64,000 bases of DNA from Methanococcoides sp. EBM-47 (lineage in GTDB: Archaea; Halobacteriota; Methanosarcinia; Methanosarcinales; Methanosarcinaceae): contig MPPA01000033.1 of the NCBI GenBank assembly GCA_001896725.1, positions 1-64,000 on the forward strand, in the 5' to 3' direction. The notes below the pieces were generated by a model that ran no database searches, had not been told where the DNA came from, and was given only the letters and a program-made list of their open reading frames with translations. Numbering within the stretch: the first letter of the stretch is position 1; every line of letters starts with the position of its first letter. The position numbers and the translations under genes are program-made. This document shows, one piece after another, positions 19,763 through 23,978 of the stretch.

Positions 19763-19826
19763 AACACCGAGTTCACAGAGAACACAGGGGATGAGAATAG
19801 TTATCCATCTCCGTGAACTTTGTGGT
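19763..19826. repeat. Imperfect inverted repeat with CAGAGTTCACAGAG-like arms
   Basis: Left arm 19763-19780 (AACACCGAGTTCACAGAG) and right arm 19809-19826 (CTCCGTGAACTTTGTGGT) pair at about 14 of 18 positions across a 28-nt loop. The arm resembles a dispersed noncoding motif (accacagagttcacagag-like) that I recall from many prokaryotic genomes. Function unknown. Confidence 0.5.
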
Positions 19827-20122
19827 CGCATCTGCATAGAGTTGGGATTATGGCATGAGGAATTCTACAGGGCTTGGGTGATTTCACCAAGGATTTTTTG
19901 TCATTGAATATTATTTTCAATTGCATATATAATGCTTGTAGTTACGTCAGGATGAAGTAGCTGAAAAGTAAATTTATACTCTTTACAGATGCTTATTTTC
20001 CTTACTTATGCCATGATTTTCATTGGTTGTAGTCTGTTTCTCTTGTCTGATTGGATAGAATGGAGTTGCAATATTTAATACTTGATGTATGTAGGTGCAA
20101 ACTACCCGAGATAGCTACAACT

Positions 20123-20130
20123 CTATATAA
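20123..20130 (+). promoter_or_regulatory. TATA box of the zinc-ribbon gene
   Basis: CTATATAA, about 97 nt before the start codon at 20227, giving a predicted leader of about 70 nt that contains the hairpin at 20187-20208. Confidence 0.4.
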
Positions 20131-20186
20131 GGCAATATTTATCAGTTTCCAACTAGCATGTGAATTCCACAACTGACTCGGAGACT

Positions 20187-20208
20187 CCCAAATAAATGTC
20201 TATTTGGG
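20187..20208 (+). promoter_or_regulatory. Leader hairpin before the zinc-ribbon gene
   Basis: Perfect 8-bp stem CCCAAATA / TATTTGGG with loop AATGTC, 18 nt upstream of the start codon. It could influence translation or mark a recombination scar. Confidence 0.45.
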
Positions 20209-20226
20209 TGAATTCGGGGTTCTACA

Positions 20227-20517
20227 ATGCCTCAGACCTATGTGCATCTTTCAGGCAAGCAGATCGATGAAGCTGTCCTGAAGATCCATGGTATCATCAA
20301 GGAGAAGGACACAATGCCGCAGCTTACAAGTACGGTGTGTCCCAGGTGCAGGCAGGTGAACGGCCCGACTTCTACTTTTTGTTCCCGGTGTGGTATGGCT
20401 ATGAGGGTTGATAGTGCTGTGGATTTGGAAAAGAAGCGGTCTGATATTGCCATGGCTTTGATGGAGCTTGTGGAGAAGGAGCCGGCGATCGCGAAGATAT
20501 TGAGGGAGAGTGTGTGA
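20227..20517 (+). CDS. Small zinc-ribbon protein equal to the C-terminal tail of a XerD-like integrase
   Basis: A 96-residue product. MPQTYVHLSGKQIDEAVLKI is the segment that follows the catalytic core in many Methanosarcina-type tyrosine recombinases, and CPRC...CSRC is their C-terminal zinc ribbon. The recombinase core (R..HxxR..Y) is absent. Homology continues for a few codons upstream of the ATG (RGST before MPQ) up to a TGA at 20209, so this is most likely a truncated integrase. It has its own TATA box, leader and terminator, so expression as a small protein remains possible. Confidence 0.6.
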   Translation: MPQTYVHLSGKQIDEAVLKIHGIIKEKDTMPQLTSTVCPRCRQVNGPTSTFCSRCGMAMRVDSAVDLEKKRSDIAMALMELVEKEPAIAKILRESV

Positions 20518-20540
20518 GGGGGTTACACTCCCTCTGTTTT
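20502..20540 (+). terminator. Terminator overlapping the end of the zinc-ribbon gene
   Basis: GAGGGAG(A)GTGT pairs with ACACTCCCTC (one bulged A), an 11-bp stem that includes the last codons and stop, followed by TGTTTTT. Confidence 0.65.
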
Positions 20541-20625
20541 TCATTAATGTTCTTCAATATCTTGTGAGGATTTTCAACATCAATACATGACTTATATTCT
20601 TTAGAGAATATGTGATTAGTAAATC

Positions 20626-20643
20626 AGAACAATCTTTTGTTCT
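20626..20643 (-). terminator. Hairpin downstream of the orc1/cdc6 gene
   Basis: Perfect 7-bp stem AGAACAA / TTGTTCT with a 4-nt loop, about 55 nt past the stop of the minus-strand operon. No T-tract follows, so it may be a processing or weak termination site. Confidence 0.35.
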
Positions 20644-20697
20644 AAAGCACATACAAATTTACCCACTCAATGTTGTGGAGATTCAGTTATGTTAATG

Positions 20698-21879
20698 TTA
20701 AAGCTCCTTTAGTCTGTAGTCCCTGTAAAGTATGTCTTCTATCTTCTTTTGGTTATTTTTAATTGATATTAGGCGAGTTTTTCCATATCTACCCCTGCTT
20801 CTAACAGGTGCTGAAATAATCCCCATCATATCGAATTCAGAGACTATCCCTGAAACACTTGTGCGCCCTAGGGGAATCATACCTAGATGTTCACAAAAGT
20901 TCCTGTAAAGCATCTCTATCTGCCCCGTTGTGACTTTATCGTTCAGTTTTCCGGTAAGCTTGATGATGCTTAGAAGAACAAGTTTTGAATTGATCGGTAG
21001 ACTTTCCAGCGAGTTTAACAAATCATTCTTCTCTATTTCTTCATTTGCTAGCAGTACATGTTTTTCAGTTACCTTTTCAGCGTTTGAGATATCTGCAATG
21101 GCACCTGCACTTTCCAGTAATCTCAGAGCTTTTCCACAGTCATACTCATTCCCGGATAGCTCCGCACATAACGTAATAACTTCTTCATCAACAACACCTT
21201 CCGCAAATGCAATTGCACATCGCTCGTCTAATATTTGTTCTACCTGTTCCTTATTGTAAGGTGGGAACACGATATTCCTATGCTGGAGTGCTGAAAAAAT
21301 ATTTTGTTCAACCTTTTCTGGAAAAAACAAATTATCACTAATTCCAACGATGCCGATGAATACGTCTTCTTCAATACTCATATTTTCACCTGCATAATTG
21401 AACTCATTAAATATGTTCTTGTCTTTCAGCGAGTCTACATCATCAAAGGCCACAATGATTGTGGTTCTCTTTTCGTTCAGCACTTTCCATAATGTTCTGT
21501 AATATTTTCCCACTGAGAGTCCAGTTCTCGGTACTTCCGTTTCAGGTGATACCTTGTTCAGGATCTCAACTATGATCTTGCTGGTAGTGCTGATCTTCTG
21601 ACAGTTGATGAAGATAGGAACAACGTTAAGACCTTTATTCTCAACGTTGTTACTCAGCTGTTTCAGAACAAATCTCACAACAGTCGTCTTCCCTGTTCCT
21701 TTATTTCCGGATATCAGCACATTTGTGAGTTCCCCGTTATGCATAACAGGACGCATCAGTAACGCAAGCTCAACTATCTGTTTTTCCCTTCCGATAAGCC
21801 TTTCCGGCACATACTTTGAAGAGAGTGCCGCCCTGTTCCTGAATATCTGGGTTCCATCAGTTCCAAAAATATCATTCAT
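20698..21879 (-). CDS. Orc1/Cdc6 family AAA+ ATPase
   Basis: A 393-residue archaeal origin-recognition/helicase-loader homologue. The N-terminal IFRNRAALSSKYVPERLIGRE is the classic Orc1/Cdc6 entry sequence. Walker A is GNKGTGKTT near residue 60, Walker B is VAFDDVDSL near 143, and a C-terminal winged helix carries LPINSKLVLLSII and RGRYGKTR, the DNA-contacting region. It starts 17 nt after the stop of the MtmB-like gene, so the two are almost certainly co-transcribed. Whether it is a functional initiator or a paralogue recruited for another task cannot be decided here. Confidence 0.9.
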   Translation of the reverse strand: MNDIFGTDGTQIFRNRAALSSKYVPERLIGREKQIVELALLMRPVMHNGELTNVLISGNKGTGKTTVVRFVLKQLSNNVENKGLNVVPIFINCQKISTTSKIIVEILNKVSPETEVPRTGLSVGKYYRTLWKVLNEKRTTIIVAFDDVDSLKDKNIFNEFNYAGENMSIEEDVFIGIVGISDNLFFPEKVEQNIFSALQHRNIVFPPYNKEQVEQILDERCAIAFAEGVVDEEVITLCAELSGNEYDCGKALRLLESAGAIADISNAEKVTEKHVLLANEEIEKNDLLNSLESLPINSKLVLLSIIKLTGKLNDKVTTGQIEMLYRNFCEHLGMIPLGRTSVSGIVSEFDMMGIISAPVRSRGRYGKTRLISIKNNQKKIEDILYRDYRLKEL

Positions 21880-21895
21880 GCTGATTCCAAAACTA

Positions 21896-23266
21896 TCATT
21901 CTATACCACAGTACTTTTTAACTTCTGCAGATACATCCTTATAAATCCCAAGATATTCATCATTGGGACTCATCTTATATACTGATTCCACTTTATAGCA
22001 TTCGTTGAATGGTTTACCCTCTGGAGCATTTGTCAGTAGATTCTCATATTTTTTGTAAATGTTGCGGACAGCTTCGTCTGCTTCCTGAAGTGACAGGCCG
22101 GTTGCCATGTATGCAACTTCTCCCATAAACCTGGATTCAAGTCCTGTTGACTGATCTGCACCTGCTCCACGCGCACCTACTGGTCCTATCAACATGTCTC
22201 TTCCACAAACAGTGTCACCAATGGCCTGTGCAGCAGTCTCATAGAACATCATATGGGTACAGCAGCCGGCAAGATTCCAATAGTATCTTGCTATGTAGTG
22301 GTGCATGTTGCGTGAAATGGCAATGGATGATAAGTTTGATCCCCACATTATTTCTTTTGTTGAAGATGAATTAGTATTCACATGGACTGCACCAGAAACG
22401 TGTAAACTGGCACCTGTAACTATTTTTGACTGAATGGTCTCTGCAACATCAACAATAGCAAGACCTTCAGGTGAGCCGATGCTTGTACCTCCAAACACAG
22501 GACACTGCCCGCTGAGGAAATGATTTCCATGCTCAAGGTGGAATATAGATTTGTAAAATGTCTCATAGTCAGTCTTAAGCTCGTCCAGCTGGTAAACTTC
22601 TTGGACATCTGCACTGGAATACAGTTCTTCGGAAGAAACGAGCATGTATGCTGGCGAGATGGTTGGTGTGCCAGGTCCCATCAATGCAAGACCTTCACGC
22701 CCTGCAAGTTTCGTTGCGAGCCTTTCCTCCCTGGCCTCTTTCAGGGCGGCAAGCATCTCAAATGGCGTTTTCCCTCGTATACTTTTTCCTCCCATTTTCT
22801 CTAGGGCACCGGCATACACCCCTTGCACGATAGGCTCTATGGCGGAACTCACATGCAACTCAAGGAAGTTCTCCTCAGAAACCGTACCTCCCATAGGACC
22901 TCCTATAATTACTGGTGGCTCGGAGTCCATAATGTACCTGAATGGAACTATGACCTTTTCGCTTTTTCTTCCGATCTCAAGCATCTCAGAAGTGTTCAAG
23001 GACTTTATAATGTCCTCTTCTTCGATATGTATCGTTTTCTTTGTGTCAATACAGTAGATGCCCACAGATGTCAATAACTGGACTGCAGCTTCAAATACAG
23101 AATCTGCAAGACTTGTATCAGTTGGTACAATAGTTTCTCCGTCATATTTTATATCGAATTCATTTGCCAGTTCCTGTGATTTCATGAATACTTCCATGTC
23201 ATGTTTTTCTTCTGACTTCACTTCACCTGTGGTAGCAGATTCGAGATATTTGTATATGTTATTCAT
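21896..23266 (-). CDS. MtmB-family monomethylamine methyltransferase homologue lacking pyrrolysine
   Basis: A 456-residue homologue of MtmB (about 458 residues), which transfers the methyl group of monomethylamine to a corrinoid protein using a Pyl residue encoded by UAG. Blocks shared with MtmB as I recall it include AGREGL..GP, VFGG, TIVDVA-like IVDVAETI, DTVCGRDML, TGLESRFMGEVA and APEGKPFNECY. At the Pyl202 position (AGRPGMGV-Pyl-GPE in MtmB) this protein has AGREGLAL-Met-GPG: an ATG codon at 22681-22679, Met196. A conserved Glu near the Pyl site (MDEQMPIFGG) is also replaced (LSGQCPVFGG). The ATG at 23266 has AAGGAAG 8 nt upstream and gives the family length; an extra ATG lies at 23296. 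Substrate unknown; it may act on another methylated compound or be non-catalytic. Confidence 0.85.
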   Translation of the reverse strand: MNNIYKYLESATTGEVKSEEKHDMEVFMKSQELANEFDIKYDGETIVPTDTSLADSVFEAAVQLLTSVGIYCIDTKKTIHIEEEDIIKSLNTSEMLEIGRKSEKVIVPFRYIMDSEPPVIIGGPMGGTVSEENFLELHVSSAIEPIVQGVYAGALEKMGGKSIRGKTPFEMLAALKEAREERLATKLAGREGLALMGPGTPTISPAYMLVSSEELYSSADVQEVYQLDELKTDYETFYKSIFHLEHGNHFLSGQCPVFGGTSIGSPEGLAIVDVAETIQSKIVTGASLHVSGAVHVNTNSSSTKEIMWGSNLSSIAISRNMHHYIARYYWNLAGCCTHMMFYETAAQAIGDTVCGRDMLIGPVGARGAGADQSTGLESRFMGEVAYMATGLSLQEADEAVRNIYKKYENLLTNAPEGKPFNECYKVESVYKMSPNDEYLGIYKDVSAEVKKYCGIE

Positions 23267-23336
23267 TATGTCAACTTCCTTATTTTTATTCATCATTTGG
23301 TCTTTTTCATTTTGTCTTGTTTTGCCTAGTTAAGAT

Positions 23337-23427
23337 TCCATGAAATTATGCCCTTAACCTCTAGTGACATGGAACATATATATGTATTTCCATGTCACTC
23401 ATAGAATAAACTATTTTGACATGGAAC
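23337..23427. repeat. Cluster of TGACATGGAA repeats upstream of the MtmB-like/orc1 operon
   Basis: TGACATGGAAC occurs at 23365-23375 and 23417-23427. The exact reverse complement TTCCATGTCA lies at 23388-23397, so the first and second copies form a perfect 10-bp palindrome around CATATATATGTAT. A partial TTCCATGA lies near 23337. The centre resembles a TATA box on the minus strand. Either an operator for the operon or an origin-recognition-box-like array for the Orc1/Cdc6 paralogue. Confidence 0.75.
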
Positions 23428-23807
23428 TAGTTTATAATGCTTTTTTGAATACTAGAAAAAATAAATAAGACCTATCGGGAATCTAATATTGTTTTATCAC
23501 AGTTTTTCAGTAAACAAAAAAGAAGTATCTACCTATGTTTTTTAAATTTATTTCTTCAGTTCACCGAACTTACCTGCCGTCGCCATCAGACGGGCGACCT
23601 GGGTCGCTTGCCATGATGTGCGAAGCGGGCGAAACGGTAAATCAGGTAGGTGGATCGAGTTCTTTGGAGGTGTCATAGAAGTGCAGAACCTGCGAGACAT
23701 CAAAGAAATAGAATCTAAAGAAACACTGCAAGCATATGATAAAACTAAGAACTGGAATACAATGGTTAAATATTCCTCACCTATTTTTCTACATATGCAC
23801 TTACCTT
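23428..23807. other. Spacer with degraded DNA between operator repeats and hsdR relic
   Basis: AT-rich at 23430-23540, then a markedly GC-richer patch at 23570-23680 unlike its surroundings. Short frames exist on both strands but none shows a recognisable domain. Probably decayed accessory DNA linked to the adjacent hsdR relic. Confidence 0.4.
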
Positions 23808-23939
23808 TCAAGCCACTGCCCATTCATGTGACAGCATTTCTGCCTGCATCAGCACAGTCTGAGTAGCCTTCTCCTGCTTGTCTGGAGAATAGCCATACTT
23901 ACGCAGTATGCGGCTTAACACTGACCTTACAAAGAAACC
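23808..23939 (-). pseudogene. C-terminal relic of type I restriction enzyme subunit HsdR
   Basis: The minus strand reads [20 protein letters not shown] then [21 protein letters not shown] and TGA (23810-23808). This is the C-terminal helical end of HsdR, the motor/nuclease subunit of type I restriction systems (family pattern [22 protein letters not shown]). About 43 codons remain; no start or upstream motor domain is present, because an intact flavoprotein gene occupies the next 560 nt. Confidence 0.75.
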
Positions 23940-23978
23940 GAAGGATTGTCTACAAAGCCGCAATAAGCAAAAATTATA

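Follow-up and report, generated by a model that had tools for sequence, protein, structure and literature searches.

The window, that is, the whole stretch of 64,000 nucleotides analysed here, carries on its reverse strand an MtmB-family methyltransferase gene with an ATG codon at the pyrrolysine position, followed in tandem by a gene for an Orc1/Cdc6-like AAA+ protein. Both lie in a segment that is missing at the same site in related genomes. The features concerned are the following (position in the window, strand, description and basis).

19815..23951, no strand: inserted segment, which three other Methanomethylovorans genomes lack at this site (genome comparison)
20227..20517, forward: 96-aa frame within the insert, similar to the C-terminus of tyrosine integrases (an annotated tyrosine recombinase matches over 82 aa with 29% identity, E 5e-5)
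20698..21879, reverse: Orc1/Cdc6-like AAA+ protein, 393 aa (TIGR02928, 340 bits, cut-off 181; AAA+, lid and winged-helix domains)
21896..23266, reverse: non-pyrrolysine MtmB-family methyltransferase, 456 aa (ORF, Pfam, alignment, model)
22679..22681, reverse: ATG (Met196) where UAG/Pyl202 stands (alignment to 1L2Q/MtmB1 and family alignment)
23336..23345, reverse: second inverted box TTTCATGGAA, at -79 (alignment)
23357..23374, reverse: proximal promoter box TTCCATGTCACTAGAGGT, at -108, repeat D5 (alignment, pattern scan)
23379..23387, reverse: presumed TATA box lying among the boxes, where most relatives have TATATATA (sequence and alignment; putative promoter element)
23388..23397, forward: inverted box TTCCATGTCA, on the gene strand TGACATGGAA, at -131 (alignment)
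23409..23426, reverse: distal promoter box TTCCATGTCAAAATAGTT, at -160 (locus alignment, pattern scan)

The methyltransferase frame (23266-21896) is intact, without interruption, and its product matches the PF05369 profile over its full length (537 bits, model positions 2-448 of 450), while the alignment with M. barkeri MtmB1 covers residues 4-445. An AlphaFold model built on an alignment of 36 sequences (mean pLDDT 94.6, pTM 0.94) gave an intact MtmB barrel that superimposes on crystal MtmB (1NTH/1L2Q) with a TM score of 0.95 and an rmsd of 1.5 Å. An enzyme of the MttB type (COG5598, MtgB) was rejected, given that PF05369 is the sole Pfam domain and the TM scores to MttB and MtgB are 0.50-0.57. 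Comparison with one Methanococcoides orthologue gave dN 0.054 and dS 1.02, i.e. a dN/dS of about 0.05, which rules out a pseudogene; as judged from these rates, the gene is under purifying selection and kept as a protein.

Within this conserved frame the pocket has changed. Met196, encoded by ATG at 22681-22679, aligns with Pyl202 of 1L2Q, where an MtmB would have an in-frame UAG, and the three residues round pyrrolysine are exchanged as well (Glu259 to Gly253, Gln333 to Tyr328 and Tyr335 to Trp330). In an alignment of 140 MtmB-family sequences, the pocket signature (positions 202, 259-261 and 333-335) reads Pyl-E-Q-M-Q-Y-Y in 62 of the 63 pyrrolysine proteins, the remaining one being incomplete at these positions, and M-G-Q-C-Y-Y-W in the window protein. 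Among the 16 closest relatives, all with 68% identity or more, 14 have Met in the pyrrolysine column and two have Phe; G-Q-C-Y-Y-W is common to all 17 closest proteins. On the strength of these alignments, the pocket is uniformly re-specified across genera and not decayed. A sequencing error or misread TAG was discarded because Met is kept in close orthologues. The initial annotation, which had described a protein collinear with MtmB and of the family size, with ATG at the pyrrolysine position and a nearby Glu replaced, was thus correct on each of these counts, and the alignment and structural modelling that it suggested agreed with it: the position falls at Met196, in an intact predicted barrel.

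Its suggestion that no pyrrolysine-less MtmB had been described was, however, mistaken. MtqB of Methanococcoides methylutens Q3c is a non-pyrrolysine MtmB homologue that transfers methyl groups of tetramethylammonium and choline to cob(I)alamin (PMC13044021, March 2026), many non-pyrrolysine members appear in a tree of 1,061 MtmB sequences (PMC13044021), and a strongly induced homologue of this sort was reported from a bacterium in 2022 (PMC9768040). The kind of enzyme was already known by 2026; it is the window clade and its Cdc6-like partner that are uncharacterised. Three Methanococcoides genomes encode a second non-pyrrolysine MtmB, whose gene stands directly 3' of one for a corrinoid protein, the arrangement described for mtqC-mtqB. 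We infer that this is the MtqB type, the proteins having been picked by context and motif and not from the Q3c MtqB sequence. They have Cys-Met-Cys at positions 259-261 as against Gly-Gln-Cys in the window protein, and the Met-Cys pair would be the one described in PMC13044021. They are only 31-32% identical to the window protein, which the tree (FastTree, another check that the initial annotation had called for) places in a clade of its own with a support of 0.999, set apart from the MtqB-type candidates. Clade and gene context, measured against those candidates only, rule out an MtqB orthologue.

As expected from the initial annotation, the organism does encode pyrrolysine: its genome contains pylS above its cut-off, followed by genes whose sizes and order correspond to pylB, pylC and pylD, and close by there is an mttB-like gene whose frame contains a TAG. 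Two hydantoinase-A-like genes lie directly 5' of pylS (L206:8505-12427), members of a family with several paralogues per genome that is often found within methylamine gene clusters. Two contigs of this assembly stop within the 3' end of an mtmB gene (C44:1-132 and C43:31379-31510), and the pyrrolysine mtmBC genes were probably lost in a repeat-caused assembly gap. Contig C43 also carries a second non-pyrrolysine MtmB (C43:29887-31230, or L081:15888-17261), 62% identical to the window protein and head to head with an mtbA-like gene, a layout that recurs beside pyrrolysine mtmB in Methanolobus and other Methanomethylovorans.

Neither in the window nor in the Methanococcoides loci does a corrinoid-protein gene adjoin the pair, so the window enzyme would depend on a corrinoid protein encoded elsewhere. 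No orphan corrinoid protein dedicated to it was found in its own genome, where the mtmC region may sit in an assembly gap; the best match there is the corrinoid gene beside the TAG-containing mttB-like gene (64%). Among the relatives, the L046 orthologue (73.5% identity) adjoins a corrinoid protein above the TIGR02370 cut-off (267 versus 215 bits), and a related Methanolobus bombayensis protein (L080) has a corrinoid gene directly upstream.

The Orc1/Cdc6-like gene begins 16 bp 3' of the methyltransferase gene in an operon-like arrangement. Its product has the AAA+ domain with Walker A and B motifs, the lid and the winged helix typical of its family, with Asp in place of Glu as the second acidic residue of Walker B. 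The Methanococcoides loci have a hydantoinase-A-like gene after the pair, which is missing beside the window pair. Cdc6-like homologues at 48% identity or above turned up solely in genomes that also have this MtmB clade or the L080 protein. No paper on a Cdc6-MtmB pairing was found in the literature searched, the coverage of which was incomplete.

Upstream of the methyltransferase gene, two direct TTCCATGTCA boxes 52 bp apart (distal to proximal) and two inverted ones surround the TATA-like stretch. The box columns are more conserved than those outside (0.92 versus 0.66, with a permutation test that ignores the relatedness of the loci), and the spacing of 52-53 bp is found in nine of the ten Methanococcoides loci as well as in the window. 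A scan of the own genome allowing at most one mismatch returned three matches, two of them this promoter, and none for the control. One locus (L071) has no distal box, two have diverged boxes 49-50 bp apart (L046 and L075), and three have neither boxes nor a neighbouring Cdc6-like gene (L076, L077 and L079). L080 does have a Cdc6-like gene, and no box array was found there, just one similar site elsewhere in the locus. The chromosomal origin boxes of these genomes (TTCCAGTSGAAA..GGGG) are similar in layout yet different. The promoter boxes resemble origin recognition boxes (ORB) and are nearly unique in their own genome; ORB elements are where Orc1/Cdc6 proteins initiate replication, but these ORB-like boxes stand at a promoter.

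Through the genus group that it shares with genome G067, we infer that the window genome belongs to Methanomethylovorans. The limits of the insert are approximate (~19815-23951); in one of the three Methanomethylovorans genomes without the segment the break starts earlier. Within it, the DNA from 20688 to 23426 is 80-82% identical to Methanococcoides, and most Methanococcoides orthologues share 88-90% identity with the window protein, which nests among them in the tree (support 0.99, FastTree), whereas the housekeeping Orc1/Cdc6 protein shows just 80% identity between the two genera. These comparisons indicate that the cassette is horizontally transferred, probably from a marine relative. In Methanococcoides it is found in several differing gene neighbourhoods, as expected for a mobile unit. 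The integrase-like frame, which resembles the end of such an enzyme with a zinc ribbon, is probably a remnant of the element that delivered the cassette. One Methanococcoides genome (G024) holds two copies of the MtmB-Cdc6-hydantoinase cassette (L072 and L073), the L072 copy having its Cdc6-like gene broken into two frames.

The best reading, to which we give about even chances, is a corrinoid methyltransferase whose substrate is a bulky N-methylated amine and which comes with its own Cdc6-like switch. The window protein would be a working corrinoid-dependent enzyme of the MtmB fold. Without pyrrolysine it would form no covalent adduct with a small amine and would most likely bind a bulkier N-methylated one instead, quaternary or tertiary and related, for example, to choline or betaine. 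The pocket would be lined by Met196, Cys255, Tyr328 and Trp330, aromatic and sulphur residues that are compatible with a bulky methylated ammonium, and one methyl group would be handed to the Co(I) of a corrinoid protein encoded elsewhere in the genome. The Cdc6-like protein of the mobile cassette would bind the four promoter boxes round the TATA box and so turn the operon on or off. That an initiator-type AAA+ protein has become a dedicated, operon-encoded switch, and that the unit passes from one methanogen genus to another as a substrate cassette, we propose more tentatively, at somewhat less than even chances. Among the three roles offered by the initial annotation, a new substrate is the best supported; a corrinoid-free role is disfavoured by the two relatives that adjoin a corrinoid-protein gene, and a regulatory decoy fits poorly. 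Against the proposal stand the missing corrinoid neighbour, the Cdc6-like gene without a box array in L080, the facts that Orc1/Cdc6 proteins normally start replication and that the closest plasmid-borne homologue is annotated as an initiator, and the distribution of the clade, which does not track choline use. Methanococcoides vulcani uses choline (PMC7374477) and has this clade's gene and no MtqB-type gene in its assembly, while M. seepicolus LLY has the same complement and does not use choline (PMC8547467); more generally, the substrate use of cultured species shows no clean match to the clade (PMC8547467, PMC6498239, PMC7374477).

The boxes might instead be the replication origin of an integrated plasmid or other mobile element and the Cdc6-like gene its initiator, with the methyltransferase as an unregulated passenger. 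Archaeal origins usually have a cdc6 gene with ORB-like repeats nearby, the insert does contain an integrase-like fragment, and the nearest plasmid Cdc6 homologue (41%), that of pMETEV01, is annotated as a plasmid initiator and accompanied by repeats that end in AGGGGT. We nevertheless consider this unlikely, as the four boxes bracket a TATA-like stretch at constant spacing directly 5' of the methyltransferase gene and not of cdc6, the cassette is chromosomal in two single-contig Methanococcoides genomes and, for the little that it tells, GC skew shows no sharp reversal at the site. In pMETEV01 (L220, ~1375-1625) the tandem repeats of about 50 bp (TACGTGCAGAGAGGGGTKGGA...) lie just 3' of the plasmid cdc6 and are likely its origin repeats; a common identity with the promoter boxes was dismissed, the layout being alike with no sequence in common.

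A similarly small chance attaches to the window protein doing the job of MtqB, as a tetramethylammonium or choline methyltransferase. Both are non-pyrrolysine proteins of the MtmB fold present in Methanococcoides, three pocket positions are alike, and the choline user M. vulcani could be explained in this way. Yet, apart from the low identity and the distinct clade, the three Methanococcoides genomes with MtqB-type genes hold both types, M. seepicolus LLY, with only this clade, leaves choline unused, and the window gene has no adjacent corrinoid gene and Gln-Cys in place of Met-Cys. Least probable, and in our view doubtful indeed, is a catalytically dead relative acting as a sensor or decoy for a corrinoid protein or methylamines, which would suit the exchange of pyrrolysine with all its surrounding residues and a partner that is a putative DNA-binding AAA+ protein instead of a corrinoid protein, but sits badly with a uniformly re-specified pocket, strong purifying selection, an intact predicted barrel, relatives tied to corrinoid genes and the activity of another non-pyrrolysine MtmB homologue (PMC13044021).

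Most non-pyrrolysine MtmB homologues have no known substrate, and the presence of this clade in nine of the 11 Methanococcoides genomes examined points to a possible part in the methane formation of marine sediments. Should the Cdc6-like partner be a regulator, an Orc1/Cdc6 protein would here serve metabolism, and a single operon. Through the cassette, both substrate and regulation can be approached in cultured strains.

With respect to known systems, the window protein has the family, length and fold of MtmB1 (1NTH, 1L2Q), from which it differs in the pyrrolysine and pocket residues described above and with which it shares about one third of its residues. Closer are the Group-B non-pyrrolysine paralogues of Methanolobus and Methanomethylovorans, including that of contig C43, sister proteins at ~60-65% identity with the pocket M-G-Q-V-Y-Y-W; unlike the window gene, they adjoin mtbA-like and pyrrolysine mtmB genes, have no adjacent Cdc6-like gene and, in the two loci scanned, lack the promoter boxes. 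MtqB has in common with the window protein the fold, the absence of pyrrolysine and its occurrence in Methanosarcinaceae, and at positions 261, 333 and 335 the MtqB-type proteins likewise have Cys, Tyr and an aromatic residue; a corrinoid-protein gene, however, adjoins the MtqB-type genes and not the window gene. What is new here is the tandem with an Orc1/Cdc6-like gene in a mobile cassette, together with the ORB-like promoter boxes; the initial annotation mentions none of these, nor the horizontal transfer. For this the nearest parallel is Orc1-2 of Saccharolobus islandicus, an Orc1/Cdc6-type protein that acts as a transcription regulator and not as an initiator (PMC9738581), the role that we propose for the window Cdc6-like protein; but while Orc1-2 is a global regulator of the DNA-damage response, the latter would be dedicated to the operon that encodes it.
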